Shown here: positions 541 through 38,018 of the stretch, one piece after another
Numbering within the stretch: the first letter of the stretch is position 1
Layout: each line of letters starts with the position of its first letter
Assembly (NCBI GenBank): GCA_036491125.1
Contig: DASXCO010000189.1
Location: forward strand, 1-52,943
Source: Acidimicrobiales bacterium
GTDB lineage: Bacteria; Actinomycetota; Acidimicrobiia; Acidimicrobiales; AC-9
Reading direction: 5' to 3'
DNA: 52,943 nt
Notes under the pieces: model-generated
Seen by the model: the letters and a program-made list of their open reading frames with translations, nothing else
The model's database searches: none
Told to the model about the DNA's origin: nothing
Program-made: the position numbers and the translations under genes

Positions 541-2373
541 ATGCCGGCCGTTGTCGTATTCATCGTCGCCGCGGGCGCTGCCGCTGCCGCGTACGCGGCG
601 CCGCTCGAGATCGCTCTGGGTGTGCTCCTGGGATCCTGGCTATTGGTGCCGGGGAGCCTCTGGCTTCCTGGAGCGCCGAGCCTTCTGCTCGTCGATCGCC
701 TCGTCTTACTGGCGTTCGTCATCGGCCTTGTCGTGCGGATCCGGCGCGGTGAAGTTTCGGTGGATTCGTTGCGTCCTACCCGGATTCACGTCGTTCTGCT
801 TGTCTACCTGGCGGCTTCGTTCGCCACAGGTGTCGCGCTGGCCGGCAGTGACGTGCCCCTGAAGGCGTCCCTCCATATATGGCTGGGCGTGCTCGACCAG
901 CTGGTGCTCTTCGTAGTCGTGTTGGCCGTCGCGAGGACCATCGGCCCCCGCCGAGTCGCCCGCACCGTGGTCGCCCTGGTCGTTGTGACTGCGGTGATCG
1001 CGCTGTTCGAGCGGGTCCTCGGATCGGGTTGGTCATCCTGGTGGTTCCACGGCCTGCCCAAGCAGCAGAGCGCTCCCGGAGCCATCGAGCTCGGCACCCG
1101 AGGTGGCTCGTCACGAGCCCAAGCGGCGGCCCAGTTCCCTCTCGAGTACGGCTGGGTCACCGCGATCCTCCTGCCGCTGGTTGCTGCCGTGGGCCTGTCG
1201 TCTCGCCGGTTGTTGGTTCGTCTGGCTCCGGCGCTCGTCCTGGCCGGCGTTGTCGTCTCCGTCTCGCGGAGTCCAGTCATTGCGAGCACGGTCGCCGCGT
1301 TGGTGCTCCTCGTCGGAGTCCGCTTCGACCTCCGGATACGACTTCCCTTGTTGATCGCCGCGGCCATAGCGGTGCTACTTCTCGTGTTCGTACCATCGCT
1401 CACTGCCCCGTTCTCGTCCGCCAGCCACAGCGACTCCGCATCCATCCGGGTGGACCGCCTGCCGCCGATCATGCAGGCCGTCGCTCCCCACCCGTACCAG
1501 GGTCTGGGCCTAGGTGCACTTGCCACGCGGGGGCTCCCCGGCGTCGACAATAGCTACGTCCTTCTCTACGCAGAGATCGGGATCCTCGGCCTCCTGGCTT
1601 GGCTGGCATCGTTGCTGACTGCTCTTGGCGTCGGGCTGGCGGCCCTCCGGGCACCACCCGGCCCTGTTCGCGCCATCGCTGCAGGTTGCCTCGCGGGGAT
1701 CGCGCTTGTTCCGGTTGCCGCCGCCTCCTATGACTTCGCCAGTGTGCTCCAATCCGGGTGGGCACTGTGGATCTTGGTGGCTGTAGCGACCGCCATCTGT
1801 GAGCTTGCGCCTCGCAAGGCGTCTGGTCAGAGGCGACGCTGGGCAGATCGAGTTCTGCTGCCGGTCGCCGGGTTCACCGCCGGAGCTGCGGTCTTCGCCC
1901 TCACGCCTGTGCACGCCGCTTCGACCTATCGATTCGAGACTCAGACGGCCTACTGGGCGGCGACAGAGCCGAGGCCCGACGAGTACATCGGTCGCGTCTT
2001 GGTCAACACCGCTTGCGATGTCATGGCGGCTGCGCCTCGAACCGATGGCGTGACCATCAGCTGTAGGCGCATGGATCTCACGCAGCCGGCGTCGCAAGGA
2101 GTCGGTGAGGCGCGGATCCAGGGACCTACCGCCGATCGCGTACGGGCTACCGAGAGCGAGCTCAATGCTCGGGTCCACGCGGCGGTGCCTGGCTTTCGCG
2201 TGTTTCCTCTCGGTGGAATCCAGTCGGGTCGGCCGACCTGGGCCCAGACCGCGCCGGTGTGGTTGGCCGCCGGGGGCCTCATCGTCGGCCTGATTGCTCC
2301 GGCTGGTCGGCGTCGTCCGGACTCCGAGCGTGAGCTTGAACCAGTAGCTGCCCCGCTACTCAGCACGATCTGA
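541..2373 (+). CDS. O-antigen ligase/polymerase-family membrane protein with Wzz-like C-terminal domain
   Basis: 610 residues. Residues 1-425 hold about ten hydrophobic segments. Around residues 320-365 is the conserved core of the Wzy_C/O-antigen ligase family (GLGLGALATRG, then VDNSYVLLYAEIGILGL). Such proteins polymerise lipid-linked repeat units or ligate glycans to an acceptor on the outer face of the membrane. Unusually, the protein continues after the last core helix: a hydrophobic segment (438-455), a hydrophilic stretch of ~110 residues (about 458-565) and a final hydrophobic segment (567-587) followed by RRR. That layout is the topology of a chain-length determinant, suggesting polymerase/ligase and length control in one chain (inference). 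The ATG at 541 lacks a good Shine-Dalgarno site. With no flippase gene in the window, ligase is as likely as polymerase. Confidence 0.85.
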   Translation: MPAVVVFIVAAGAAAAAYAAPLEIALGVLLGSWLLVPGSLWLPGAPSLLLVDRLVLLAFVIGLVVRIRRGEVSVDSLRPTRIHVVLLVYLAASFATGVALAGSDVPLKASLHIWLGVLDQLVLFVVVLAVARTIGPRRVARTVVALVVVTAVIALFERVLGSGWSSWWFHGLPKQQSAPGAIELGTRGGSSRAQAAAQFPLEYGWVTAILLPLVAAVGLSSRRLLVRLAPALVLAGVVVSVSRSPVIASTVAALVLLVGVRFDLRIRLPLLIAAAIAVLLLVFVPSLTAPFSSASHSDSASIRVDRLPPIMQAVAPHPYQGLGLGALATRGLPGVDNSYVLLYAEIGILGLLAWLASLLTALGVGLAALRAPPGPVRAIAAGCLAGIALVPVAAASYDFASVLQSGWALWILVAVATAICELAPRKASGQRRRWADRVLLPVAGFTAGAAVFALTPVHAASTYRFETQTAYWAATEPRPDEYIGRVLVNTACDVMAAAPRTDGVTISCRRMDLTQPASQGVGEARIQGPTADRVRATESELNARVHAAVPGFRVFPLGGIQSGRPTWAQTAPVWLAAGGLIVGLIAPAGRRRPDSERELEPVAAPLLSTI

Positions 2374-2483: not shown

Positions 2484-3545
2484 GTGACCGTTGCTGCGGC
2501 TCCCGAGGTGGTCGTCGACGCCGACGTGCTCGGCCGGCGCAGGACCGGCGACGAGAGCCACGTTCAGAACCTTCTCAGGGAGCTGGCCGGAGTGGATCAC
2601 GGAATGCGGCTGGTGGCCGTCGCGCGACGAGAAGAGGTGGTCCCTGCGGGGGTTGAGCCGTTCGTCCTCCCGGCTCGCAGCCGGGTGCAGAGGCTGGGCT
2701 GGTCCCTTCCTCGGGCCCTCAACGCTCTCCGGCCGCGTCTGGCCCACTTTCAGTACGTCATCCCGCCCCTCTATCGAGGACCGGCGGTCGTCATGGTGCA
2801 CGACCTGTCGTTCGAGCGTATGCCCCAGCTCATGGGGTACCAGGACAGGCTGGCCCTTCGCACCTTGGTGCCCTTCGCGGTTCGTCGGGCGGACCGTGTG
2901 CTCACGGTCTCGGAGTGGTCTCGAGCGGACATCCTGGACTGCTACGGCCTGGAGCCCGAGCGGGTCGTGGTGACCGGGGGGGGACTCGACCCTGCCTTCA
3001 CCCGCACGGGGGACCGGCCTGACCGCCCGCCGTACCTGCTGTTCGTCGGCGCCCTGCAGCCTCGCAAGGGACCGGTCGTGGCCCTGGACGCCCTGGCTCG
3101 CCTGCCCGAGGACCTCCAGTTGGTGATGGTCGGCCCGGTGAAGCGGGGGTTCGGGGAGGTGCGGGCGTCGATGGACCGGCTCCGGTTGAGCTCGAGGGTC
3201 GAGCTGGCCGGATACGTTTCCAAGGAGGACCTGGCGGGGCTCTATCGCGGAGCCGCCTGCATGATCTTCCCTTCGCACTACGAGGGGTTCGGCCTTCCCG
3301 TCCTCGAGGCGATGGCGTCCGGCACGCCGGTAGTGACTACGACCGCCGGGGCAATTCCTGAGGTCGCCGGAGACGCTGCGGTGCTGGTGCCGCCGGGCGA
3401 TCCTGATGCCCTGGCGGCGGGTGTCCAGGTCGCCATCGCGGATCGCGACCGGTTGGTGGCGGCCGGACTCGATCGGGCACGGAGGTTTCGTTGGGCGAGC
3501 GTCGCTCAGAGGACACTCGACGTGTATCGGGAGGTGCTGTCGTGA
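2484..3545 (+). CDS. Glycosyltransferase family 4 (GT-B fold)
   Basis: 353 residues, the usual GT4 length. It transfers a sugar from a nucleotide-sugar donor to a lipid-linked acceptor at the cytoplasmic face. The N-terminal Rossmann half contains VVMVHDLSFERMP near residue 100, typical of the mannosyl/rhamnosyltransferase-like subgroup. The C-terminal donor-binding half has LLFVGALQPRKG and the EX7E-type motif HYEGFGLPVLEAMASG near residue 270, followed by TPVVTTTAGAIPEVAG. GTG 2484 was chosen because it opens the frame and gives a complete N-terminus. It has no clear Shine-Dalgarno site, and GTG 2508 is an alternative. The stop overlaps the next start by 4 nt (GTGA), so the two genes are translationally coupled. 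Sugar specificity cannot be read from sequence. Confidence 0.9.
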   Translation: MTVAAAPEVVVDADVLGRRRTGDESHVQNLLRELAGVDHGMRLVAVARREEVVPAGVEPFVLPARSRVQRLGWSLPRALNALRPRLAHFQYVIPPLYRGPAVVMVHDLSFERMPQLMGYQDRLALRTLVPFAVRRADRVLTVSEWSRADILDCYGLEPERVVVTGGGLDPAFTRTGDRPDRPPYLLFVGALQPRKGPVVALDALARLPEDLQLVMVGPVKRGFGEVRASMDRLRLSSRVELAGYVSKEDLAGLYRGAACMIFPSHYEGFGLPVLEAMASGTPVVTTTAGAIPEVAGDAAVLVPPGDPDALAAGVQVAIADRDRLVAAGLDRARRFRWASVAQRTLDVYREVLS

Positions 3546-4309
3546 GCGGCACGGAGGTCGGGGCAGTTGTTGTCACGCACGGACCCCACCAAGATCTCGC
3601 CGACTGCCTGACGGCGTTGGATCGCCAGGTCGACCAGCTCGTTGTCGTGGCCAACCTGCCCGGCCCGCTGCCCGTTCCCCCCGCGGCCGTGCTCATCGAG
3701 AACAGACGACCGGTTGGCTTCGCAGAGAACGCCAATCGTGGTGTGGCTGCCACCACCGCCCCGTGGGTTGTGATAGCCAATCCTGACGCCGTGGCTCGTC
3801 CTGACGTGGTCGACCGCCTCATCGGCTTCGCCGAGACCAAGCCCGCCGCTGGGGTCCTCGGGCCCCGCCTGGTGTATCCGGATGGCCGCCTCCAGTCGTC
3901 CAGGCGGCGGTTCCCAACTGTTTCCGGCACTGCGGTTCGCCGGACGCCCCTCCGCTTTGCGTTTCCGCCTGACCGCTGGCAGCAGGCGCATTACTGCACC
4001 GATGAGGAACCGGATCTGCCGGTGCCCGCGGACTGGCTCATTGGGGCTTTTCTCCTTCTGCGCCGCCGGATGTTTGACGAGATAGGCGGTCTCGACGTCG
4101 GATACCGCCTCTATGGCGAAGACATCGACCTTGGCTATCGGGCGGCCCGAGCCGGCTGGGAACGCTGGTTCGTGCCCGACGCGATGGTCCAGCACCGGTT
4201 TGCTGCCGTCATCGATCGGCGGTTCCTCCACAGGCACACGCTGTGGCACATGCGCGGCATGGCCCGGTACATCCAAAAGCACCCCGAGAGCATGCTCCGC
4301 TTCCGCTGA
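3542..4309 (+). CDS. Glycosyltransferase family 2, WbbL/rhamnosyltransferase-like
   Basis: 255 residues from GTG 3542, which overlaps the previous stop by 4 nt. An upstream GTG at 3491 lies inside the GT4 gene and is rejected. The GT-A core shows VGAVVVTHG at the N-terminus, the metal-site region WVVIANPDA (a variant of DxD) and the acceptor motif LYGEDIDLGYRAARAGW near residue 200. A GEDxDL motif followed by a VxH segment (MVQHRF) is typical of the WbbL group, which adds L-rhamnose to polyprenyl-PP-GlcNAc in mycobacteria. The specific donor is not established, and no dTDP-rhamnose genes are present in the window. It acts on the cytoplasmic side as part of chain assembly. Confidence 0.88.
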   Translation: MSGTEVGAVVVTHGPHQDLADCLTALDRQVDQLVVVANLPGPLPVPPAAVLIENRRPVGFAENANRGVAATTAPWVVIANPDAVARPDVVDRLIGFAETKPAAGVLGPRLVYPDGRLQSSRRRFPTVSGTAVRRTPLRFAFPPDRWQQAHYCTDEEPDLPVPADWLIGAFLLLRRRMFDEIGGLDVGYRLYGEDIDLGYRAARAGWERWFVPDAMVQHRFAAVIDRRFLHRHTLWHMRGMARYIQKHPESMLRFR

Positions 4310-4336: not shown

Positions 4337-5089
4337 ATGATCTATGAGCTGAAGGTTCGAGCACTGAACAGTCCGCACGGCCACAAGGCCGCGCGTCGCT
4401 GGCGCCAGGTTCGCACCGGCGTTCCCCGCGCCACCCAGACCGCGGACTACATGCGAGGCCGAGTGGAGGGTCGCAGTGTTGTGGACGTCGGCTGCATGTG
4501 GAAGATCCACGGTGCGCACTGCTTCATGGCCGAGGACATGGGTGCGAACCGCATCGCTGGAGTCGATCTCTACAGCACTTCGGAGTTCGAACGTGCTCGC
4601 GAGGACCGAGGATCCAAGGTGGAGTTCTACGGTGCGGATGCCACCGAGCCAGGGGTCCTGAAAGAGCTCGTCGGCTCAGTCGACCTCGTGTGGTGCTTCG
4701 GCGTTCTCTACCACGTCCCGGATCCGTGCCAGCTCCTAAGAGGCCTCCGGGAGATCTGCACCTCCGAGTTGGTCCTCGAGACCTTCACCATTCCTGAGGT
4801 CCCCGGCGTGCCCCACGCGGCCTGTCTCTTTCCCTACTTGACCGACTCCCAACGGCGTTCGTGGGAAGGCCGCCGAGCCCAACCCCGGTATCCGATCACC
4901 AAACCACTTCAGGGCGCCGGAGGCTTTGACAACAACTTCTGGGGCCTGTCGACCACCGCGGTTGTCGCCGCCCTGAGGTTGGCGGGTTTCGTGGTGGATC
5001 ACCACGAGCCTTCTCTGCACGGGACCCTGCGGACGGTCTTCTTCGCCAGGCCGGATCCCAACGGCGCCGTGGTGTTCCAGTCGCCGTGA
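4337..5089 (+). CDS. Class I SAM-dependent methyltransferase with altered motif I
   Basis: 250 residues, ATG start 4337 with a GGTGAG-like site 4 nt upstream, 27 nt after the GT2 gene. Motif I reads VVDVGCMWKIHG instead of the usual DxGxGxG, followed by AEDMGANRIAGVDLY with the acidic residue that would bind the SAM ribose. A motif II/III region (DLVWCFGVLYHVPDP) and a C-terminal LRLAGFVVDHHEP element complete the fold. Substituted glycine loops of this type occur in some sugar and lipid methyltransferases related to the CmoB-like group, so the protein may still be active. Context suggests O-methylation of a polysaccharide residue; this is inference. Confidence 0.82.
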   Translation: MIYELKVRALNSPHGHKAARRWRQVRTGVPRATQTADYMRGRVEGRSVVDVGCMWKIHGAHCFMAEDMGANRIAGVDLYSTSEFERAREDRGSKVEFYGADATEPGVLKELVGSVDLVWCFGVLYHVPDPCQLLRGLREICTSELVLETFTIPEVPGVPHAACLFPYLTDSQRRSWEGRRAQPRYPITKPLQGAGGFDNNFWGLSTTAVVAALRLAGFVVDHHEPSLHGTLRTVFFARPDPNGAVVFQSP

Positions 5090-5164: not shown

Positions 5165-5944
5165 GTGGCTGGCTCCACCCCTCGTGATCGCGCCACGACG
5201 ACAGCTCGGACCCGCCGGATCGGGCCGAGTCCGCCGCCGGCCGATTTCTTCACGCCGACGTCAGGTGTCACCAATGGTCACGATGCCTCCCACGAGGACG
5301 AGCCGGGCCAGGACTGGTCGCGGGCGCTGTGGGAGGCACTGAAGCACCGGCCCGGCCGCAACCTGGTGCTCTCGCTGGCGATCGCGCTCTTGGCAGCGGC
5401 CCTGGGCGCGACCCTCATCCTTAAAGAACCAGCCAAGTGGTCCAGTAGCGCAACTCTCCTGATAGACGACCCCCAACAGCTCGCTACAGCTGGCGACGAC
5501 GGAATCATCAACAAGCTCAACCAGCTCCGTCTCAAGTACGCTGGCCTCGTCTCGACGACAGCCATTGCCGGCCCGGTGGCTCAGCAACTCGGAGTCGACG
5601 AGGGGATGGTGGCCGGGTCCACCTCAGCCGTCCCGGCACAGGACTCGCTCATCCTCTACACCGAGGCCACCGCGTCGGACCCGTCAATGGCCCAGCGGAT
5701 GGCTCAAGCGGTGGCCGACGAGCTGGTGAGCTACGTCTCGGACGAGAACTCCCGATTCCAGCTTCCCGCCAACCTCCAGTACACCTTCAGCGTCGTCAGC
5801 CCCGCGACCGGGGCTAACCAGATCGCACCCTCGCATACCCGCGCCGAGACCGTGGCCGCGGCGCTGGCCGCAGTAGCACTGATCGGGGCTTACGTAGTCC
5901 TCCAGCTGGTGGCGCCACGACGCCCACGACGCCTACAACGTTGA
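5165..5944 (+). CDS. Wzz/chain-length-determinant-like membrane protein (no kinase domain)
   Basis: 259 residues from GTG 5165. The start is uncertain because the first ~50 residues are Pro/Asp-rich and no in-frame ATG lies before the first helix. Two transmembrane segments (about 66-86 and 228-249) enclose a ~140-residue extracytoplasmic domain beginning KWSSSATLLIDDPQQL. That is the topology and opening motif of Wzz/capsule co-polymerases. A C-terminal PRRPRRLQR follows the second helix. The tyrosine-kinase domain found in many actinobacterial and firmicute homologues is absent. The probable role is chain-length control or scaffolding for polymer export. It converges on the next gene, separated by 26 bp. 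Confidence 0.75.
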   Translation: MAGSTPRDRATTTARTRRIGPSPPPADFFTPTSGVTNGHDASHEDEPGQDWSRALWEALKHRPGRNLVLSLAIALLAAALGATLILKEPAKWSSSATLLIDDPQQLATAGDDGIINKLNQLRLKYAGLVSTTAIAGPVAQQLGVDEGMVAGSTSAVPAQDSLILYTEATASDPSMAQRMAQAVADELVSYVSDENSRFQLPANLQYTFSVVSPATGANQIAPSHTRAETVAAALAAVALIGAYVVLQLVAPRRPRRLQR

Positions 5945-7823: not shown

Positions 7824-8806
7824 GCGATACCGGCTCGTGGGATGGGGCCGCTCCAGCGTGCTCAGTGGTCGTCTGCACCCGAGATCGCCCCGAGATGCTC
7901 AGGGAGACGATCGTCAGGCTGGTCGAGAACCTCCGTACCTCTGATGAGATCATCGTGGTGGACTCGGCCTCTCGTCCTGGCTCAGTGAGGGCGGTCGTGG
8001 ACAACCACAGCGACCGTGGGCGAGTACGCCTGCGCGTCGTGCGCCAGGACGTACCTGGGGCGTCCCGAGCCCGGAACGCCGGGCTGGCGGCCGCTCGGGC
8101 TCCGGTGGTGGCCTTCACCGACGACGATTGTCTGGTGACCGAAGACTGGACGGCCCGCATCGAGCAGCCCTTCCGTGACCCGGGAGTGGGGTTCGTCACC
8201 GGCCGGGTGCTCGGTGACCTCGATGTTCAGCTCCCACTTTCGTTGATGATCGACACGGAGCTTCGCCGCTTCGAGGGACCAGGCGACCCGGCAACCTACG
8301 GTATGGGCAACAACGTGGCGTTCCGGCGGTCGGCTCTACTCGGAGTCGGAGGCTACGACGAGGCCATGGGTCCGGGCACGCCGATCCACGCGGCCGAGGA
8401 CCAGGACCTCATGTGGCGGGTTGCGAGCGCTGGATGGGCGGGCGTCTACGACCCGACCGCGGTCGTCGTACACCGCCAGTGGAGAGGACGTCGCGGATCG
8501 TTGGCGCAATCGTTTCGCTATGGCATCGGCGCGGGCGCGGTGGCCGTCAAGGCCATTCGGATACGACGGCGAGAGGGCTGGGAGATCCTTCTCGCTCGAC
8601 TGTGGCGCGATGGTGTCCTGCGGGCGCTACGCGATCTGCAAGCCGGCTACGAGTGGGGAGCTGTTGCCGGGCTGGTCAGCCTCCCCGGAGTGGCGGTAGG
8701 AGTGTTGCGCGGTGCACGTCTGAGTCTCGACGGCGAGCACTACGGCGATCAGTACCGCCACTCACGCAAGCGACGGGCATTCAGCGCAACAGGTACGGCG
8801 ACGTAG
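7820..8806 (+). CDS. Glycosyltransferase family 2
   Basis: 328 residues from ATG 7820, overlapping the preceding stop by 4 nt. An open frame reaching back to 7763 is rejected because it runs inside the previous gene. Motifs: CSVVVCTRDRPEML, DEIIVVDSAS, SRARNAGLAAARAPVVAF, the DxD equivalent TDDDCLVTEDW, GMGNNVAFRRSALLGVGGYD and AEDQDLMWRVASAGW. A hydrophobic segment near residues 275-300 may be membrane-proximal. Resemblance to the GT2 genes at 5971, 15914 and 18275 suggests expansion by duplication. Specificity is unknown. Confidence 0.88.
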   Translation: MSDTGSWDGAAPACSVVVCTRDRPEMLRETIVRLVENLRTSDEIIVVDSASRPGSVRAVVDNHSDRGRVRLRVVRQDVPGASRARNAGLAAARAPVVAFTDDDCLVTEDWTARIEQPFRDPGVGFVTGRVLGDLDVQLPLSLMIDTELRRFEGPGDPATYGMGNNVAFRRSALLGVGGYDEAMGPGTPIHAAEDQDLMWRVASAGWAGVYDPTAVVVHRQWRGRRGSLAQSFRYGIGAGAVAVKAIRIRRREGWEILLARLWRDGVLRALRDLQAGYEWGAVAGLVSLPGVAVGVLRGARLSLDGEHYGDQYRHSRKRRAFSATGTAT

Positions 8807-8809
8807 GAT
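8780..8809 (+). promoter_or_regulatory. Predicted leaderless promoter of the first GH113-like gene
   Basis: TAGGAT (8804-8809) fits the actinobacterial TANNNT -10 and ends exactly 8 nt before ATG 8818. A weak -35 (TTCAGC, 8780-8785) lies 18 bp upstream. The start point would fall at or 1-2 nt before the ATG. The paralogue at 41802 has the same -10-to-ATG distance. Confidence 0.42.
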
Positions 8810-8817
8810 CCGAGCGG

Positions 8818-10080
8818 ATGGGCCCAAGAATTCGGCGATCGCTCCCGGCGATACTCCTGATCTGTGGGCTGCCATTGGCACTGCTGCCGATCACTCCCGC
8901 CCATGCAAGCGTCGGACCCGCCAGTCCTCGACTGTCTGGTGTGGACTTCCTTACCGGTTACCACAGCATCACGCCGTGGGCCTTCGACTTTCCACGCATC
9001 AAAGCCGATGGCGCCAACACCGTCTCCTTCGACGTCTGGTGGCGGGTCCCGGACTTCTCCTCGAACTCGGTCACTCCCGATTTCACCAAGGCCACAGCAG
9101 CTCCCGTGACGCCTACTGACACCGACGCTGACCTGATAACTGCCGCGCGCCAGGCCCACCAGGCGGGTCTCAACGTGGTCCTGACGCCGAAGATCGTGAT
9201 CGGGTCCAATGTCAACAACAGCGGCTGGCGGGGCCTTTACAATCCTCCAAACCCGGCGAACTTCTTCACCAACTACGCAGCCATGACCAACCATTACGCG
9301 TCGCTGGCCCAGCAAGCCGGGATGTCGATGCTCGTTGTGGGAAGTGAGATGATCGCGAGCGACCGGTACACGAGCTATTGGCGACGCGTCATCGCCTCCG
9401 CCCGCCAACGCTTCACAGGCCAGATCGGCTACGAGGTGGATTGGCGGGAGATTTCCCAGTTCAGCTGGGGCGACGCCGTAGATGCACTGTTGCTCTCTGC
9501 GTACTTCCCTCTCTCCAACGACGAGAATCCGACGCTTTCGCAGCTCGAGGCTGGGTGGCATTCCTATCAAGCACCCGGCCAGACCACGACCCAAGACGCC
9601 TTCTCAGCCGTGGCCGACTTTGCCCGCCGATGGAGCAAGCCGATCATCTTCGGCGAGGCCGGGTACACGGCCACCACGTATCCCGCCGACCAACCCTGGT
9701 GGAACAAGCCCAATCCCACCGTCGCTCCTCAGTCCCAGTACCTGGCTTACGAGGCATTGCTGGACACCTTCGTCGGGCAACCCTGGTGGGGTGGCGTGCT
9801 GTGGTGGGCGTGGAATGACGGTGGTCCGAGGAGCCCCGAGAACAAGCCTGCCGAACGCCTTATCGGGTCCCAGTGCGCCGGGCCGCCCAGTACGGCGCAG
9901 CATGGCGAGACATTATTGGGGCCCTGCCACACCAAGCTCGCTTCCGTCGGATCGGCCCCGAGCAACTCGACGAAGGCTGTGGGCGGCATCGCCCTCGGCA
10001 CCCTCCTGCTGGCGGTTGCAACCCTGCTTTCCCTCGGCTGGTTCAGACTTCCTCGCCGGCACAGGGCGGAAATGCGATAG
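8818..10080 (+). CDS. Secreted, membrane-anchored GH113-like glycoside hydrolase (paralogue A)
   Basis: 420 residues from ATG 8818. A frame reaching back to 8413 lies within the previous gene and is not used. Signal peptide 1-30 (RIRRS, hydrophobic core, THAHA-type cleavage region). The TIM-barrel domain spans about 38-350, with GVDFLTGY, IKADGANTVSFDVWW, LTPKIVIGSNVNNSGW, the probable acid/base Glu177 in VVGSEM and the probable nucleophile Glu280 in IIFGEAGY. This arrangement, with LLLSAYFPLS between the two, matches the GH113 beta-mannanase-like barrel. A C-terminal hydrophobic helix (about 388-408) followed by RLPRRHRAEMR would anchor it to the membrane facing outward. Substrate is unproven; a mannan- or mixed-linkage-type glycan is a guess. 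It is highly similar to the protein encoded at 41802. Confidence 0.82.
   Translation: MGPRIRRSLPAILLICGLPLALLPITPAHASVGPASPRLSGVDFLTGYHSITPWAFDFPRIKADGANTVSFDVWWRVPDFSSNSVTPDFTKATAAPVTPTDTDADLITAARQAHQAGLNVVLTPKIVIGSNVNNSGWRGLYNPPNPANFFTNYAAMTNHYASLAQQAGMSMLVVGSEMIASDRYTSYWRRVIASARQRFTGQIGYEVDWREISQFSWGDAVDALLLSAYFPLSNDENPTLSQLEAGWHSYQAPGQTTTQDAFSAVADFARRWSKPIIFGEAGYTATTYPADQPWWNKPNPTVAPQSQYLAYEALLDTFVGQPWWGGVLWWAWNDGGPRSPENKPAERLIGSQCAGPPSTAQHGETLLGPCHTKLASVGSAPSNSTKAVGGIALGTLLLAVATLLSLGWFRLPRRHRAEMR
8932..9867 (+). repeat. Long imperfect direct repeat, copy A (GH113-like coding sequence)
   Basis: This segment of the GH113-like gene is closely similar at DNA level to 41916-42825 in the same orientation, including an identical run of over 20 nt around 9212-9234 encoding VNNSGWRG. 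The two copies are ~33 kb apart and enclose most of the polysaccharide locus. Confidence 0.7.
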
Positions 10081-13216: not shown

Positions 13217-14878
13217 TTAGCAGGGGCTGCGGCGATGAAAGACAGCAGGCACCGTGCGTGCCAACAGTCGGGCGTCGAGCCAGACAGACCAATTGTTGAT
13301 GTACGCGAAATCCAACTTGACCATCTCGTCGTACGTTAGCCCGTTGCTGCCTGCGACCTGCCAGTAACCGGTGATGCCGGGCGGGACGCAGTGGCGTCTG
13401 CCGTCGAGGGCGCCGAACTCGTCCGGGTGGACCGCGAGGGGCCGAGGTCCGACGAGGCTCATCTGGCCCTTGAGCACGTTGAACAGCTGAGGAAGCTCGT
13501 CGATTGAGTAACGGCGGATGAAGCGACCGACGGCTGTGACTCGGGGATCCTCCTCCATCTTGAACAGCAACCCATCGGTGACGTTGTTTACCTTCAGCTC
13601 CGGAAGCAGATGCTCGGCGCCGACGACCATGGAGCGGAACTTGAGAGTGGCGAAGGTCTTGCCTCCCTGTCCGACTCTCTGCTGGTGAAAGAGGATCGGC
13701 CCACGGTCCTGCAGCCAGATGGCGGCGGCAGTCGCGGTCATCACGGGGGCCGCGAGCACTACGAGAACTGACCCGACGATGAGATCGAAGAGGCGCTTTC
13801 CGGGCACGGCACGAGCGCTTCGACTGACCGTCCCCAGAGTGATGAGGGGTAGCCCTCCCACCTGGGCGACCAGGCACGGGTGGAGGAACAGCTCGGCAAG
13901 CGGAGGCAACATGGAAAAGCTCAGGTCGAGGCCCTCGCAGCGCTCGATGCAATCGGCCACGACGCCGTCTCGGTCGCCGTCAGGCAACAGCACGACGTGG
14001 CGGATCCGATGCTCGGTAACGACCCTCGACAGGTCGTCCGGCAGGTGCCCTACACGCTTGGCGTCGACCGAAGGATGGAGCACGTCGACTGGCAGCAGGC
14101 CGGCCTCGGGGAAGGCGCAGAGCTTGTCCACCACCGTTTCGGCCATCTGATCTGCGCCGATAACCATGGTGCGACGCAGACCGTGGCCCCGCCTTCGGGC
14201 GGAGACGACCACCGCCCAGGTGACGGTACGAAGAGCCACCAGTCCCGTGGCAAGGAAGGCCGCCACCCGAAGCTCGGTCAGCGGCGCCAGGATGGCCGAG
14301 AGGACCACGACAACGGCGAACAGGGGCCCGACCAGCCGGGCCGGGTACCAGGCCACTCCCTGAGTCTCGATGGATGTACGGCGGGCGTAGAGCCCGCTGG
14401 CCAGGAAGGTGACGAGGACCAGCGAGACCAGGGTGGGTACGCCCACTCCGCGCACGCCGGCGGCGACGGCCGCGCCGGCTGCCACGATCGCGTCAGCCGC
14501 GAGGGTCGGTACGGAGGGCACCGACCCGTGCACGTGGTCCACTATGCCGAGCCACCGGGGGAAGTCCTCGACTGGTCGGACACCGTCAAGGCCGACGGGG
14601 AGGGGCACAGCCCTCGGCGACCGGAGGGGGGGTCTCCGTGGTGTTACGAGGGGCAGGGGCGAGACGATCTGGTCAGCTGAGACCGTCGGAGAGCTGGCTC
14701 CCGCCGCCCGGGTCGTGGGAATGGTCGGGGCGAGCTGGTCAGCCGTGACTGTTGGCAGAGCGGGAGATTCCTTCAAACTCTCGAGGGCTGTCGGTTGAGC
14801 GATCTGGTTGGCCGAGACGGTCTGTCGCCCGCGCGTCGCCCCCGTCTCGCCGACGAGTGGCGCACCCTCATGTCTCAT
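13217..14878 (-). CDS. Initiating polyprenyl-phosphate sugar-1-phosphate transferase (WbaP/EpsE-type)
   Basis: 553 residues from ATG 14878, with GGGAG 8 nt upstream. A frame extending to 15034 adds low-complexity residues and is less likely. Residues ~145-230 have hydrophobic helices and 236-350 a Rossmann-like CoA-binding-type domain (MVIGADQMAE). The C-terminal bacterial sugar transferase domain (about 358-550) shows KRLFDLIVGS, QQRVGQGGKTF, TLKFRSM, EDPRVTAVGRFIRRYSIDEL, LVGPRP and PPGITGYWQV. It starts the glycan by moving a sugar phosphate onto undecaprenyl phosphate at the inner face. Oddity: the N-terminal 130 residues carry three or four copies of TV[ST]A[DN]Q[IL] (residues 20, 43, 65 and a looser one at 125) in a Pro/Thr-rich region. 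It probably heads the operon 14878 to 11199. Confidence 0.9.
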   Translation of the reverse strand: MRHEGAPLVGETGATRGRQTVSANQIAQPTALESLKESPALPTVTADQLAPTIPTTRAAGASSPTVSADQIVSPLPLVTPRRPPLRSPRAVPLPVGLDGVRPVEDFPRWLGIVDHVHGSVPSVPTLAADAIVAAGAAVAAGVRGVGVPTLVSLVLVTFLASGLYARRTSIETQGVAWYPARLVGPLFAVVVVLSAILAPLTELRVAAFLATGLVALRTVTWAVVVSARRRGHGLRRTMVIGADQMAETVVDKLCAFPEAGLLPVDVLHPSVDAKRVGHLPDDLSRVVTEHRIRHVVLLPDGDRDGVVADCIERCEGLDLSFSMLPPLAELFLHPCLVAQVGGLPLITLGTVSRSARAVPGKRLFDLIVGSVLVVLAAPVMTATAAAIWLQDRGPILFHQQRVGQGGKTFATLKFRSMVVGAEHLLPELKVNNVTDGLLFKMEEDPRVTAVGRFIRRYSIDELPQLFNVLKGQMSLVGPRPLAVHPDEFGALDGRRHCVPPGITGYWQVAGSNGLTYDEMVKLDFAYINNWSVWLDARLLARTVPAVFHRRSPC

Positions 14879-15106
14879 CCCAGCTCCCAACGTTCTTCCC
14901 CTGGGCCATTCAGCGCGCTTGGCCGCAGCATTTCGATCTGCCCTACGTCTTCTCCTGCCGGTTGACCGAGCCGGGCCTGGTGTTTGCCCGGAGTTCCCCC
15001 CCTCGGGGTATGCGAGCAACTCCTGCGGACCCACTCCGGAGGGACGGAGCAGGCCCCAGGCGCTCAGACCGCCCGAGAGTCCTCCAGTTCACCCGTGCGG
15101 GGGAGG
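14879..15106 (-). other. 228-bp non-coding leader with inverted repeats
   Basis: No convincing gene lies between the methyltransferase end and the sugar transferase start. On the minus strand it includes a perfect 6-bp hairpin (CCGGGC/GCCCGG, 14971-14991, loop of 9) and a CTCCG/CGGAG hairpin further upstream. It could be a structured 5' leader for the initiating transferase. No known riboswitch consensus could be matched by eye. Confidence 0.35.
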
Positions 15107-19277: not shown

Positions 19278-20549
19278 TCAACTGGACGTCCTGGTGAGCG
19301 TGGGAGGCGGACGGTCAGGGGGTGGCCCGTAGCGGAATCGATCGGCCGCAGCGAGATGCCAGGCTTCGAGGACCTCGGCCAGGCGATCCACGGTCAGCTC
19401 ACTCGCCGTCGCCAGCCCGCCCTGCACCAAGCGGGCGCGTAGCGCCGGGTCGTCAGCGAGCCGACGAAGGGCAGCTGCCAGCAGAACGGCGTCACCGGGC
19501 GGGAAGACCAGGCTGTTGCGGCAGTCGGACAGAAATTCGGCCGAGCCGCCGGTGCCCGTGGCTACCACCGGGGTGCCGCAGGCCATGGCTTCGATAGGGA
19601 TCAGGCCAAAGGGCTCGGACCAGGTGGGGGGGAAGACGAGCGCATCCGCCTCTTCGTAGTGGCGCCTGAGCTCCTCCCGCTGGACGGCGTCGAACCGGAC
19701 CCGGTCCGCCAGGCCCAGCTCATCGACTAGCCGATGGAGCTCGCCAAGGTGGCGGGAATCGCCGCGGCCCAACACGGAGAGGGTGGCCTGCTCGGGGAGG
19801 AGGGGGAGGGCGCGGATGATGGTATCGACGCCCTTGCGCGGATCTAAACGACCGACCGACAGCAGCCGCCAGCCCCAGGGGCGGGCCTCCCTGACTTCGG
19901 GCACGCCCAGTGGGAAGTCGGCAGGATCGATGCCGCTGTAGACCACTGTCGATTGGGTGAAGCGCAAGCCAGTACGAGCAGTGGCGTGGCTCCGGGTTGC
20001 CTCACTCACAAAGCAGCCCGTGGCCCGGTCCCCCAGGTCGGCCGGCAGCCCGGTAGGCAGCCCGGTCAGGCGGCGCACGAGCAGCCGGGTGCGGGGACGC
20101 CGAGCGAACAGCCGCGTCCATGCGTCCAGGGCTGGGCCGTAATCCAGCCAGTCATCGCAGACCACGAGGACCAGTGGCAGCCGCGCCTCGACGATGGTGG
20201 TCACGAGACCAAGCGACATCGCTCCCATGTTCCAAACCGACACCACATCGGGGGTGACATCGTCAAGGGCTCTCCGGAGGTGCCGCTGATTGGTCCTTTC
20301 CACCTCGAGCCGCCGCCAGAGACTGGGGCTCACGAGAGCGTGGTCCTCCCAGTAGAAGTCCAGGTCGCGACGTATGCCGCGGTCCCTCTCGCCAGGGAGG
20401 TCGATCACTCCGGCCACCCGCATGTTGGTGGTGAGGACGGTCACCCGGTGGCCCCGCTCTCGCCAATGCTCCACCACGTCCCGGCAGGAAAGCTCGTAGC
20501 CGCCGTAGTAATGGGGTGGGTACATGTTCGAGACGACGAGAACCTTCAT
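19278..20549 (-). CDS. Glycosyltransferase family 4
   Basis: 423 residues, ATG start 20549. N-terminus VLVVSNMYPPHYYGGYELSC is a classic GT4 opening with the acceptor-side GGYE loop. C-terminal: LLSVGRLDPRKGVDTIIRAL, LSVLGRGDSRHL, and the donor motif TWSEPFGLIPIEAMACGTPV with the catalytic-type E-x7-E spacing. The final ~20 residues are Pro-rich (PPPDRPPPTLTRT). Retaining cytoplasmic glycosyltransferase. It is divergent from the wzm gene across a 105-bp region with an ACCGG/CCGGT inverted repeat and a TATCGT -10-like element. Confidence 0.89.
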   Translation of the reverse strand: MKVLVVSNMYPPHYYGGYELSCRDVVEHWRERGHRVTVLTTNMRVAGVIDLPGERDRGIRRDLDFYWEDHALVSPSLWRRLEVERTNQRHLRRALDDVTPDVVSVWNMGAMSLGLVTTIVEARLPLVLVVCDDWLDYGPALDAWTRLFARRPRTRLLVRRLTGLPTGLPADLGDRATGCFVSEATRSHATARTGLRFTQSTVVYSGIDPADFPLGVPEVREARPWGWRLLSVGRLDPRKGVDTIIRALPLLPEQATLSVLGRGDSRHLGELHRLVDELGLADRVRFDAVQREELRRHYEEADALVFPPTWSEPFGLIPIEAMACGTPVVATGTGGSAEFLSDCRNSLVFPPGDAVLLAAALRRLADDPALRARLVQGGLATASELTVDRLAEVLEAWHLAAADRFRYGPPPDRPPPTLTRTSS

Positions 20550-20564
20550 TCCGACGATGACGAT

Positions 20565-20579
20565 ACCGGTCCTTCCGGT
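20565..20579. promoter_or_regulatory. Inverted repeat in the GT4/wzm divergent region
   Basis: ACCGG-TCCTT-CCGGT is a perfect 5-bp inverted repeat, 16 nt upstream of the GT4 start on the minus strand and 76 nt upstream of wzm. On the minus strand it runs directly into TATCGT, a -10-like hexamer 10 nt before the ATG. It could be a repressor or activator site; this is low-confidence. Confidence 0.3.
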
Positions 20580-20654
20580 CGAGCCCAGCGAGCGCGGGCG
20601 CAGAGGTGCACGCCACCACAGCGGCAGTGGGGCTGGGCTCGGGAGTCGTCGGCG

Positions 20655-21479
20655 ATGAGCGTAGCCACCGGGTTCGAGCTCACACCTCGGGCGACCTCCT
20701 CACGGTCCCTGCTGATCGAGCTGTGGCGGTCTCGGGACCTCGTGCGCATTTTGTCCCGAAAGGAGTTCTTCGTTCGCTATCGGCGAGCCTCCTTCGGCCT
20801 GCTTTGGGCCGTGGGCCTCCCGCTGTTCCAAGCGGTCGTCATCGCGGTGGTATTCAGTCGACTAGCCCATCTTCGGCCAGGAACCACGAACTACGTAGCC
20901 TTCATCCTCGCTGGGCTCGTGGGTTGGACCTACTTCTCTTCGACCCTGGGGACGGGATCTACGGCCGTCGTGGACGGATCGTCGCTGACGTCCAGGATCT
21001 ATTTCCCCCGAATGGTGCTACCGCTCGTCACCGTGGGATCCAATCTGTACGGGTACCTCATCAGTCTTGTCGTCGTTGTCGGGATCTGCTTCGCTCTTGG
21101 CGTACCGGCGAGCCCCCGCCTCCTGCTGCTCGTGCCAGCCACCGTCCTGTTGGTCGCCCTAACCGCTGCCCTCTGCCTCACCCTCGCCGCTCTCCACGTC
21201 TATTTCCGAGATGTTCGCTGGGTGGTCCAGGCCTCCCTACTTGCCTGGATGTACGTAACTCCTGTGATCTACCCGCTTGACAGGCTTCACGGCCTGGCCC
21301 ATGTCCTCTGGATCAATCCGGCCACGGGTATGGTCGAGCTGTTCCATGCCGCCATCGTGGGCACCTCTGGCGACTGGATACCGTCGGTCTGGTGCTCGCT
21401 TGGATGGGTGGTTGCCTTGTTCGTGGTCGGCATCGCTCTCTTCCGTCGCTTCGATCGCGTCTTCGTGGACCTCCTGTGA
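20655..21479 (+). CDS. wzm: Polysaccharide ABC exporter permease (Wzm/TagG type)
   Basis: 274 residues from ATG 20655 with GGGAG 9 nt upstream. The open frame extends back to 19953, but that part is antisense to the GT4 gene and is rejected. ABC-2 permease features: the cytoplasmic N-terminal ELWRSRDLVRILSRKEFFVRYRRASFGLLW typical of O-antigen and teichoic-acid exporters, then six hydrophobic helices (about 48-70, 78-100, 115-150, 150-185, 195-215, 240-262) and LLAWMYVTPVIYPLDRL before the fifth. It moves polyprenyl-linked glycan across the cytoplasmic membrane with Wzt. The stop overlaps the wzt start by 4 nt. Confidence 0.93.
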   Translation: MSVATGFELTPRATSSRSLLIELWRSRDLVRILSRKEFFVRYRRASFGLLWAVGLPLFQAVVIAVVFSRLAHLRPGTTNYVAFILAGLVGWTYFSSTLGTGSTAVVDGSSLTSRIYFPRMVLPLVTVGSNLYGYLISLVVVVGICFALGVPASPRLLLLVPATVLLVALTAALCLTLAALHVYFRDVRWVVQASLLAWMYVTPVIYPLDRLHGLAHVLWINPATGMVELFHAAIVGTSGDWIPSVWCSLGWVVALFVVGIALFRRFDRVFVDLL

Positions 21480-22708
21480 CTCCGCGCATCCAGCTTCGTG
21501 GAGTGGGTAAGCGCTTCACGAAGTACGAAGACACGCCGATGCTCGTTACGCGCGCCCTGCATCTCGGCCCGCGGACCCGCCGCAGCGCCCTGTGGGCTTT
21601 GCGCGATGTCGACTTGGACGTGGCACCTGGTGAGTCCGTAGGGGTGATAGGACGCAATGGATCCGGCAAGTCCACCCTGCTCCAGCTGATGGCCGGTGTC
21701 ACGGCTCCGACAGAGGGGCGCGTGGCCGTGCACGGGCGGGTCGCCCCGCTGATCTCGGTCGGCGTCGGCTTCCACCCTGAGCTGACCGGGCGGGAGAACG
21801 TCTATGTCAATGGGACCATCCTCGGGCTGACCAGGAGCGAGATAGAGCGTCGCTTCGAGGCCATCGTGGCCTTTGCGGAACTCGAGGAGTTCATCGATAC
21901 GCCCGTCAAGTTCTACTCCTCGGGTATGTACGTCCGGCTCGGCTTCGCCGTGGCCGCCCAGTCAGAGCCAGACGTCCTCGTCGTCGATGAGGTGCTCGCC
22001 GTGGGTGACCTCGCCTTCCAGCTGAAGTGCTACAAGCGCATGTCCGAGGTCCAAAACTCCGGGGCGACCATCGTCGTGGTGAGCCACAACCTGGCCTCGG
22101 TCAGGACCCTGTGCCAGCGAGCTCTGGTGGTCCACGATGGCAGGGTGCGCTTCGATGGCTCGACCGATGATGCGCTGTCGGTGTACCACAACTATCTGGC
22201 TGAAACGGCTGTCGAAGAAGTGACAGGAGCTTCCGGGACGGAGGCCAAGCCAGCGGCTCGCGCCGCCGTTGAATCCTTCGAACTCCTTGATGCTGACGGC
22301 CAGGCAGTGACGCACGTCTCGAGTGACTCGGTCGTTACATTTCGCGTGCGCATATGCTTCGACACTGCAGCGCGGGATCCGGTGCTTGGTCTCAGCATTG
22401 TCAACGAGGCGGGCATCCCGGTCTACGCCGACAACGCGCCAGTGCGGGCGGCAACCGGCAATTTCGCACCCGGCGATGACTTGAGTTGTGACATCGAGGT
22501 CGCCTTGCCGCTGCCGACCGGCACCTACCAGGCGGTGGTCGGAGCGACGGACTCGGACTTGGCCACGGCGATTGCCCGGACACGCCCGCTGTTCTTTTAT
22601 GTGAGCGGTCGTCGGATGGTTCACGGGGTCGTCGACCTCCACGCCTCGTTCACGGTGAACCGTGATCTCGTGTCGGCCGACGGGCTTCGCAGGGCCATCG
22701 AGGACTGA
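21476..22708 (+). CDS. wzt: Polysaccharide ABC exporter ATPase with C-terminal glycan-binding-type domain (Wzt)
   Basis: 410 residues from GTG 21476, overlapping the wzm stop (GTGA). The nucleotide-binding domain has Walker A GRNGSGKST (59-67), a Q-loop-like region APLISVGVGFHPELTGREN, signature YSSGMYVRLGFA (147-158), Walker B VLVVDE (167-172) and the H-loop His204 (VVSHN). Residues ~255-410 form an added beta-rich domain like the Wzt C-terminal domain that recognises the finished glycan's non-reducing end in O9a-type systems. In such systems export is tied to a terminal modification, often methyl or phosphate. The many methyltransferases nearby fit that idea (inference). A strong hairpin follows the stop. 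Confidence 0.93.
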   Translation: MTPRIQLRGVGKRFTKYEDTPMLVTRALHLGPRTRRSALWALRDVDLDVAPGESVGVIGRNGSGKSTLLQLMAGVTAPTEGRVAVHGRVAPLISVGVGFHPELTGRENVYVNGTILGLTRSEIERRFEAIVAFAELEEFIDTPVKFYSSGMYVRLGFAVAAQSEPDVLVVDEVLAVGDLAFQLKCYKRMSEVQNSGATIVVVSHNLASVRTLCQRALVVHDGRVRFDGSTDDALSVYHNYLAETAVEEVTGASGTEAKPAARAAVESFELLDADGQAVTHVSSDSVVTFRVRICFDTAARDPVLGLSIVNEAGIPVYADNAPVRAATGNFAPGDDLSCDIEVALPLPTGTYQAVVGATDSDLATAIARTRPLFFYVSGRRMVHGVVDLHASFTVNRDLVSADGLRRAIED

Positions 22709-22966: not shown

Positions 22967-24841
22967 GTGGCGAGCGGAAAGAGGCGGATCGAGTTTCTAA
23001 CGCGCCACCAGCGTGACCTGCCGCGTCGGTTGCGACAGCTTGTTGGGGGCATTAGTGGGCTAATGCTGGTGCTGGTTCTGGTCACCACGGGTGGCTTGGG
23101 GCGAGCCGCCGCTGCACCAGCGGCCGCGGTCGTGAATGATCCTCCGGCCTTGCTCCCCTTCACTGTCGCGCGGGGAGTCCTGTTCGGCGCGGCAACAAGG
23201 TACTGGATCCTTTCCCCGGGGGTTGATGACCAGTACAGCTCGACCCTCACGGCTAACTACAACGGCGTTACCCCGGAGAACGCCATGAAGTGGGCGGCCA
23301 CCGAGCCGGCGAAGGACCAGTACGACTTCAGCTCGGCCGACCCTATCGTTGCGTTCGCCGCGGCAAACCACCAGCAGGTCCGGGGCCACAATCTCGTCTG
23401 GGGCAATGACAACCCTGCCTGGTTGGAGCAAGGGACATGGACCCGTGACCAGCTCATTCAGATCATGCACGACCACATCTCGAACGTGGTCACCCACTTC
23501 GAGAACGAATTCCCGGGCACGGTGACGCAGTGGGATGTGGTGAACGAGGCCGTCACCGGTCCCGGTCAACTCGTACCGAACATCTGGGAGCGTGTCATTG
23601 GCTCGGATTACATTTCGATGGCGTTCCAGTTCGCTCACCAGGCCGATCCCAATTCCCAGCTGTATTACAACGACTACGGCGGTGAGGGGCTGGGGCCCAA
23701 GTCGGACGCGATCAACTGGGTCGCTGCTTACCTTAAGTCCACGGGGGTGCCCATCGATGGCGTAGGCCTCGAGTCGCACTTCGACCTGAACCCACCCCCA
23801 CAGGCTGACATCGCCAGCAACATGACCCGGCTCGCCTCCGAGGGGTTGAAGGTGGCGGTCACCGAGATGGACGTGCGTCTGCTGCCGCCCGCTGGCTACA
23901 CCTCCCCCACCGACGCCCAAAGCTGGGACCAGGCGCACATCTACTACGCGACGCTGGCCACATGCCTGGCCCAGCCCGCCTGTTCCACCTTCGTCACCTG
24001 GGGCTTCACCGACAAGTACTCCTGGATACCGACAAGTTATCCGGGCTACGGCTGGGCCCTTCCGTTCAGCGATACCTATGCTCACAAGTCTGCCTACACG
24101 GGGCTGGCGGCGGCGCTTCAGGGAGGTGCTGATCCGTACTGCACGACGTACGCCTCGCCCGCTACCGGGACTCATCGGGTCTGCGGTGCCCTGCTGGCCA
24201 AGTACCAGGCGCTCGGGGGCCCTTCTGGCTTCCTCGGCTATCCCACCACCGACGAGACCCCCACGCCAGACGGCGTCGGTCGCTTCAATCACTTCGCAAA
24301 CGACGGCTCCATCTACTGGAGTCCGAACACCGGCGCCTGGTCCATTCACGGCGCCATCCGGGCCAAGTGGGCCAGCATGGGCTGGGAACAGGGCGTTCTC
24401 GGCTACCCCACCACCGACGAGACCGGCACTTCAGACGGAGTAGGCCGCTTCAACCACTTCAGCACCGCCGGCTCCATCTACTGGACCCCGAACACCGGCG
24501 CCTGGTCCATCCATGGTCGGATTCGGGACAAGTACCAGGCTCTGGGCGGACCCTCGAGCGTCCTCGGCTACCCCGTCACCGACGAGAACGGCACCCCTGA
24601 CGGAGTGGGCCGGTTCAATCACTTCAGCAACTCCGGCTCCATCTACTGGACCCCGAACACCGGCGCCTGGTCCATCCATGGGCGCATTCGGGACAAGTGG
24701 GCCAGCATGGGCTGGGAGAGGAGCTGCTTGCGGTACCCCGTGAGTGACGAATTCGCCATCCCCGGTGGGCGGCAGAGCAACCTTCAGCAGGGCGTGATCA
24801 CGTATAGCTTCAGCTCAGGACAGGCGACCCCGAGCTGTTAG
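22967..24841 (+). CDS. Secreted GH10 endo-beta-1,4-xylanase-like enzyme with LGFP repeats
   Basis: 624 residues from GTG 22967 with GAGG 7 nt upstream. Basic N-terminus and hydrophobic segment (about 24-50, ending GRAAAAPAAA) form a signal peptide. The GH10 TIM barrel spans about 65-380: LFGAATRY, NGVTPENAMKW, VRGHNLVWGND, acid/base Glu194 in WDVVNEAV, the YYNDYG segment, VGLESHFD, nucleophile Glu300 in VAVTEMDVR, and TFVTWGFTDKYSW. Both catalytic glutamates are intact. From about residue 405, three full 55-residue LGFP-type repeats and a partial fourth follow. LGFP repeats are associated with actinobacterial cell-wall proteins, so the enzyme is probably held at the wall. Substrate xylan is the family default; action on the locus's own glycan is also possible. 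Confidence 0.92.
   Translation: MASGKRRIEFLTRHQRDLPRRLRQLVGGISGLMLVLVLVTTGGLGRAAAAPAAAVVNDPPALLPFTVARGVLFGAATRYWILSPGVDDQYSSTLTANYNGVTPENAMKWAATEPAKDQYDFSSADPIVAFAAANHQQVRGHNLVWGNDNPAWLEQGTWTRDQLIQIMHDHISNVVTHFENEFPGTVTQWDVVNEAVTGPGQLVPNIWERVIGSDYISMAFQFAHQADPNSQLYYNDYGGEGLGPKSDAINWVAAYLKSTGVPIDGVGLESHFDLNPPPQADIASNMTRLASEGLKVAVTEMDVRLLPPAGYTSPTDAQSWDQAHIYYATLATCLAQPACSTFVTWGFTDKYSWIPTSYPGYGWALPFSDTYAHKSAYTGLAAALQGGADPYCTTYASPATGTHRVCGALLAKYQALGGPSGFLGYPTTDETPTPDGVGRFNHFANDGSIYWSPNTGAWSIHGAIRAKWASMGWEQGVLGYPTTDETGTSDGVGRFNHFSTAGSIYWTPNTGAWSIHGRIRDKYQALGGPSSVLGYPVTDENGTPDGVGRFNHFSNSGSIYWTPNTGAWSIHGRIRDKWASMGWERSCLRYPVSDEFAIPGGRQSNLQQGVITYSFSSGQATPSC
24197..24838 (+). repeat. Tandem 165-bp LGFP-encoding repeats
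   Basis: Units at 24197-24361, 24362-24526 and 24527-24691, plus a degenerate fourth to 24838, each encode ~55 residues with [FV]LGYP, TDE, DGVGRFNHF, GSIYW and NTGAWSIHG. Units alternate between AKYQALGGP- and AKWASMGWE-type openings, so the duplication step may have been a two-unit block. DNA identity between units is high over the FNHF to WSIHG part. Confidence 0.85.
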
Positions 24842-32602: not shown

Positions 32603-32682
32603 GCACTGCTTCTTTCCCGTGATGGAGGCTCTCCGCTAATGCGTCGGACACGGCTTCCGTGGCAGCCTTGTGGCCCCGCCTG

Positions 32683-32691
32683 TGCTATGTT
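32683..32691 (+). promoter_or_regulatory. Extended -10 promoter of the first GH5 gene
   Basis: TGCTATGTT gives an extended -10 (TGn before TATGTT, 32686-32691). Transcription would start near 32698, giving a ~27-nt leader to GTG 32725 with GGGGAG (32715-32720). This placement is why I prefer the start at 32725 over the GTG at 32659, which would lie upstream of the promoter. Confidence 0.45.
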
Positions 32692-32724
32692 CGCCGCTCC
32701 TTCGTGAGCACGCTGGGGAGCGGT

Positions 32725-37869: not shown

Positions 37870-38018
37870 CTACCAGCCTTCCGGCAGAGCCGATTGGCCG
37901 GGGCGGCCTCGATGGCGGGAGTTTCCATGCTGTCTCGTGCTGTTCTGGGCGAGGCTGCGGGTTGCGGTCGCGAGTACCGGAGGGATATGACCCGCGGCGG
38001 CGAAGACTCTACCGATGG

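Follow-up and report, generated by a model that had tools for sequence, protein, structure and literature searches.

At the start of contig C189 of an Acidimicrobiales genome (3.83 Mb in 251 contigs), a single gene joins a Wzy_C-family membrane core to a C-terminal module whose predicted fold resembles that of polysaccharide co-polymerases. The entire contig, 52,943 nucleotides long, was analysed and is referred to below as the window. The explanation that we favour, at about even confidence, is a Wzy-type polymerase that contains a co-polymerase-like module of its own, tied to the assembly of a separate, small co-polymerase partner. The features on which this explanation turns are as follows.

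541..2373, plus strand: Wzy_C-family membrane protein with C-terminal co-polymerase-like module, 610 aa (open reading frame and Pfam)
1228..1605, plus strand: PF04932 Wzy_C match, residues 230-355, 41 bits against a cut-off of 31.7 (Pfam)
1834..2370, plus strand: C-terminal module, residues 432-610 (alignment of 14 modules, and a model with pLDDT 85.6)
2014..2064, plus strand: Cys492 and Cys508, invariant in 14/14 aligned modules
5165..5944, plus strand: stand-alone small co-polymerase (Wzz-like) partner, 259 aa, two membrane helices

The 610-aa reading frame is uninterrupted. Wzy_C was the sole family found by Pfam in the protein, a search of NCBIfam gave no result, and the gene was the only PF04932 match found in its own genome. 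Before residue 438 a simple hydropathy scan gave 14 peaks, some of them overlapping, against the ten helices that the initial annotation had assigned to the core. The second large loop carries a conserved motif with D336 (window 1546-1548), an aspartate that is invariant in 12 aligned fused proteins; at the same site in unfused relatives there is Asp in ten of 12 and His in the other two. We take this site to lie near the catalytic histidine of WaaL-type ligases.

Beyond the core, the module consists of a basic linker, a membrane helix, a domain of approximately 110 residues, another membrane helix and a basic tail. Hydropathy placed the helices at residues 438-456 and 568-586 with 111 residues between them, in agreement with the layout described initially; PRKASGQRRRWADR precedes the first helix and GRRRPDSER follows the second. 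The 14 aligned modules share the invariant positions Gly448 (first helix), Cys492, Cys508, Pro565, Ala571 and Pro572. Both cysteines are also present in the module of G626, a genome outside the order, and are thus common to all 15 modules. In each of the 12 full-length proteins these two are the only cysteines of the module; G044 has one extra cysteine a residue ahead of it. Because basic clusters stand at both ends, the positive-inside rule places the domain outside the membrane, and an oxidising compartment there would fit the two invariant cysteines, which probably form a disulfide.

A model of the module was obtained with AlphaFold2 from the 14-row alignment (pLDDT 85.6, pTM 0.69). In its N-terminal half a helix (433-454) is followed by a strand (458-466), a short helix (470-475) and a helix (481-497); the middle has two strands (505-510 and 521-528) and a helix (531-548); and the end has two strands (553-556 and 561-563), two helices (566-569 and 571-585) and the basic tail. 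The model shows neither the long helical insertion nor the helical barrel of classical Wzz (PCP-1). The Wzz-like topology that had been claimed for this segment, with two membrane helices flanking an alpha/beta domain and with basic ends, was borne out by hydropathy, charges and the model taken together.

The gene at 5165 had been noted as a separate Wzz-like protein. The partner scored 17.2 bits with PF02706, under the cut-off of 25.5, and the family was matched at E <= 1 by six of 14 partners. Its model (pLDDT 85.1) is built like that of the module. When compared with solved structures, the partner model matched Wzc (Z 14.0, rmsd 3.4 A, 185 residues), KpsE (Z 12.9, rmsd 5.1 A, 178 residues) and WzzE (Z 9.4, rmsd 4.6 A, 188 residues), and its best Foldseek match was KpsE (E 1.8e-6). 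Because of these matches to solved Wzc, KpsE and WzzE, the partner is, by its modelled fold, a co-polymerase, although its PF02706 score is below the cut-off. KpsE and Wzc, of the PCP-3 and PCP-2a classes of co-polymerase, respectively, are the closest solved folds of the partner.

The arrangement of core and module in one gene is uncommon, as had been suspected. A profile of the module gave strong matches (E < 1e-18) in 14 of the 397 genomes of the order, the present one included, and a full-length profile search of the order returned the same 14 genomes. Module and core lie in one open frame in 12 of them; in G103 and G288 the fused gene is divided across contigs. In a class-wide draw of 296 genomes the present genome was the sole module match at E <= 0.001, and in a phylum-wide draw of 296 genomes convincing matches were limited to this genome and G626, a genome of the same phylum whose fused protein has a frame of 638 aa and exceeds the PF04932 cut-off. 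Relatives of the fused protein with named records came from four metagenome-assembled genomes (three of Actinomycetes bacterium and one of Acidimicrobiales bacterium). An assembly artefact is ruled out, since 12 genomes of the order each have a complete fused frame, and so does G626. Plasmid and viral contig searches gave no result; a further plasmid search with a Wzz-type protein yielded one record, which was left out of the analysis. Weak module hits in G856 and G837 (20-22 bits), each with an internal stop codon, were taken as chance matches, and the G856 stretch gave no hit with the two profiles. A 473-aa frame of G113 that matched the first half of the module was rejected as evidence, since it encodes a propeller-like protein with a membrane anchor and a weak match to SGL.

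That the segment might be a standard extension of the O-antigen ligase family was an alternative raised initially. PF04932 matches were present in 102 of 148 genomes, and the module profile was run against 30 other PF04932 proteins, which were among the highest PF04932 scorers of the 148 genomes, with one frame per locus, rather than a random sample; none gave a convincing match (best 5.6 bits), which rules out a standard PF04932 extension. Nine of these 30 proteins carry tails of 145-206 residues of other kinds. Against 1,594 distinct frames, the profile found the fused family and cut copies of it, with no full unfused polymerase among the 32 matches listed. Hydropathy revealed the module at none of 16 unfused loci, but it is a poor test: of three fused controls it recognised the second helix in just one, and at two of the unfused loci (L031 and L032) it was applied to a frame other than the matched one.

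Fused gene and partner are consistently found together. Close homologues of the partner (E < 1e-20) occur in seven of 148 genomes, and these are the seven of that draw that carry the fused gene, membership of the draw being judged from handle numbers. In all 14 other fused genomes a partner-type gene lies directly upstream of the fused gene on the same strand; the gap is at most approximately 25 bases in the 13 relatives from the order, with start codons chosen by the analyst, and in G626 the two genes may overlap. The window is the exception, as its partner lies 2.8 kb downstream of the fused gene, with two glycosyltransferase genes and one methyltransferase gene in between. Immediately upstream, the fused gene is preceded in the window by a Pro/Arg-rich frame (2-499) that is cut by the start of the contig. 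It occupies the place of the relatives' co-polymerase gene and has no Pfam match at E <= 0.001.

A separate Wzz-like gene is thus present in 15 of 15 fused genomes, the present one included, which rules out a fusion that replaced Wzz; the module is therefore an addition to Wzz, and with the partner retained nothing argues for functional replacement. The initial proposal of a Wzz-like fusion holds insofar as a co-polymerase-like module sits on a Wzy_C core, but Wzz itself has not been absorbed. The small size of the partner was rejected as a companion of the fusion, since the unfused co-polymerase of G011 also has approximately 150 residues between its helices. A further observation concerns G059, in which a 580-aa frame (L073:1390-3129, minus strand) matches the small co-polymerase profile at residues 362-550 and has no Pfam match in its first 340 residues; it could represent a further fusion, or the frame may extend beyond the gene.

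How closely the module is related to co-polymerases was judged from fold and from sequence. The models of module and partner agree in their order of secondary structure, down to a short pair of strands ahead of the last helix, and the partner adds two helices to the series; this likeness is one of element order in predicted models. A small protein, 1j27, aligns over its length with both the module (Z 8.7, rmsd 2.9, 97 residues) and the partner (Z 8.1, rmsd 2.6, 93 residues). In Foldseek searches with the module, KpsE, a co-polymerase with two helices, was found at rank 46 (E 5.4e-3, 181 columns) and was the only co-polymerase among the 50 best matches listed, and VIA-align had no co-polymerase among its 50 best matches listed. 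The top matches of both programs were ferredoxin-like domains of unrelated enzymes and a designed protein (VIA Z approximately 11). The resemblance to Wzz that had been predicted for the fold therefore stands as regards the element order of the partner co-polymerase, but generic ferredoxin-like folds outrank KpsE, and the long helical insertion is missing. We consider a likeness in fold between module and co-polymerases likely, judging from the models.

At the level of sequence, the comparison of the segment with PF02706 came out against the initial claim, as this family was absent among those matched by the modules (0/14 at E <= 10). Alignment of module and partner with hhalign gave a probability of 6.7% in local and 26.7% in global mode. 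When the partner columns were shuffled, whether over the whole length or within the soluble part, the real local and global scores exceeded those of all 100 shuffles, by a narrow margin over the best shuffle (24.9 against 23.0, and 24.3 against 21.8). With the soluble parts alone, the score was reached by three of 100 shuffles (local) and two of 100 (global), so that the profile signal comes mainly from the membrane helices and adjoining residues.

The module profile was also scored against other proteins. The 25 co-polymerase-type proteins, which were defined by a partner-profile score above 18 bits and are not all over the PF02706 cut-off, outscored a background of 124 frames that have at least two helices (AUC 0.75), nine of the 25 exceeding the 95th percentile of that background. 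When the background was limited to the 14 frames with a similar helix-gap-helix layout, the AUC fell to 0.69 and seven of the 25 exceeded the 95th percentile. For these comparisons 43 Wzy-family frames were dropped and 27 co-polymerase frames were reduced to 25; we rely on the AUC, as the Mann-Whitney p is too small when related sequences are treated as independent. The best-scoring co-polymerase (L076, 18.5 bits) is a PF02706 protein (46.5 bits) with a kinase-type ATPase domain, and its alignment stays in register from helix one through the second helix of the domain. Against kinship, an equally high score of 18.6 bits came from an unrelated propeller-like protein with a membrane anchor, which had been picked for its match to the module profile. 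Sequence searches of solved structures gave no hits with two alignments (A3, comprising the 14 modules, and A5) and three unrelated hits at E 0.1 with a third (A4). Kinship of the module to Wzz at the sequence level appears weak, and the balance tips slightly towards homology.

A different origin for the module would be an independently evolved, ferredoxin-like extracellular domain set between two helices, which only looks like a co-polymerase and has a putative role in dimerisation or in binding a glycan or an acceptor. The ferredoxin-like fold is very common, and the generic ferredoxin-like domains at the top of the module's fold matches, the lack of a PF02706 match and the marginal profile signal of the soluble parts are what such an origin would give. 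It would also suit the cysteines, since the module has an invariant pair and 12 of 14 partner proteins have none. Against it stand the order of elements and the membrane flanks, which are the same as in the neighbouring co-polymerase, the full-length profile signal above all 100 shuffles, and the consistent genetic pairing with a co-polymerase. We consider an independent origin rather unlikely.

The other explanation concerns the function of the whole protein, and bears on the genes that surround it in the window.

2484..3545, plus strand: GT4-type glycosyltransferase, between wzy and partner
3491..4309, plus strand: GT2-type glycosyltransferase
4337..5089, plus strand: methyltransferase
8413-10080 and 41802-43262: GH113 proteins
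13217..15034, minus strand: initiating sugar-1-phosphate transferase (PF02397)
19953..21479, plus strand: Wzm-like ABC transporter membrane subunit (frame; PF01061 at residues 264-467)
21392..22708, plus strand: Wzt-like ABC transporter ATPase with Wzt_C domain
22967-24841: glycoside hydrolase family 10 protein, then four LGFP repeats
32659-34077 and 37818-39767: PF00150 cellulase-type proteins

The window also holds many glycosyltransferases and methyltransferases, several glycoside hydrolases and a sulfotransferase; the hydrolases are numerous for one polysaccharide locus. A Wzm/Wzt exporter (19953-22708) is located in the same cluster as the Wzy_C protein, the co-polymerase and the PF02397 initiator, and it is possible that the cluster has a mixed export route. 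No PF01943 flippase was found within the window. The only PF01943 match of the genome is on contig C181 (L093, L094), where the flippase and a 548-aa protein with PF02706 and a kinase-type ATPase domain are approximately 6 kb apart. Wzm homologues were found near the fused gene in six of 14 loci (the present one included and G288 left out), in a survey that covered 7.6 to 53 kb per locus, so that misses are not absences. Nine of the 14 other fused genomes have a PF01943 flippase, and only in G091 is it on the contig of the fused gene, approximately 41 kb away; this count was made on short contigs and for the PF01943 family only.

With such neighbours, the protein could be a ligase that moves a finished, Wzm/Wzt-exported glycan onto a wall or lipid acceptor, the module recognising the acceptor. 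PF04932 is named O-antigen ligase, and the Wzm/Wzt pair and PF02397 initiator in the window, the Wzm homologues near the fused gene in six of 14 loci and the flippase sharing its contig in just one of 14 other fused genomes are all in keeping with that activity. It is opposed by the consistent pairing with a co-polymerase, which is a partner of polymerases, but the pairing is not decisive because KpsE-type co-polymerases work with ABC exporters. Attachment of capsules in Gram-positives, moreover, is reported in a review to be carried out usually by LCP enzymes (PMC12220298), which also counts against a ligase. We regard a ligase as unlikely, and retain it as an explanation because the Wzm/Wzt genes are in the cluster.

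Among known systems, the WzyE/WzzE pair of enterobacterial common antigen resembles the favoured arrangement of polymerase and co-polymerase-like module, as it too combines a polymerase with a two-helix co-polymerase whose alpha/beta motif 1 is at the periplasmic face; WzyE and WzzE are reported to form one complex, and the Wzy:Wzz complex described is of low resolution (about 20 A, with antibody) (PMC10030265). In that system polymerase and co-polymerase are two proteins, the latter with a helical barrel in the periplasm, whereas the polymerase described here bears its own module of the size of motif 1 and still has a small separate partner. The module differs from KpsE, which is also among its matches, and from Wzc in its shorter length, its invariant pair of cysteines and its fusion to a PF04932 core; it also lacks a kinase part and, in the model, a long helical hairpin. 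Within the order, G011 and G258 have ordinary unfused pairs of Wzy_C and PF02706 genes that are likewise adjacent; their co-polymerases are over the PF02706 cut-off, and their polymerases (frames of 503 and 493 aa) end without the module. In a literature search that left most subscription papers and bioRxiv preprints outside its coverage, no Wzy with a Wzz-like domain was found. We regard the fusion as a new variant of the Wzy/co-polymerase system.

If the protein acts as a Wzy-type enzyme that polymerises a surface polysaccharide, its C-terminus would supply a single helix-domain-helix unit with the build of a co-polymerase's membrane-proximal core, to which the module corresponds in size and place. 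The module would be located on the outer side of the membrane, the side that would also bear the large loops of the polymerase, and a putative disulfide would hold it together. It would pack against the oligomer of the small partner or take one seat in it, and a covalent link would thereby join the polymerase to the assembly that determines for how long it goes on adding repeats. According to the review cited above, the membrane part of a co-polymerase must interact with WzyB for control of O-antigen length (PMC12220298). A role of the module in chain-length control is putative. The more specific proposal, that the protein is a natural polymerase/co-polymerase chimera whose C-terminal unit is seated in or docked on the partner ring as part of the length-control assembly, is one that we hold tentatively, at somewhat below even confidence.

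The contact between Wzy and Wzz, their ratio, and the signal by which Wzz stops Wzy are open questions of the field. If the chimera is real, the covalent linkage would fix the number of polymerases per ring, and the contact could be tested by splitting one gene, by swapping or deleting one domain, or by predicting one chain with its partner. A co-polymerase-like core carried by the polymerase itself would thus offer a natural handle on how Wzy and Wzz work together.
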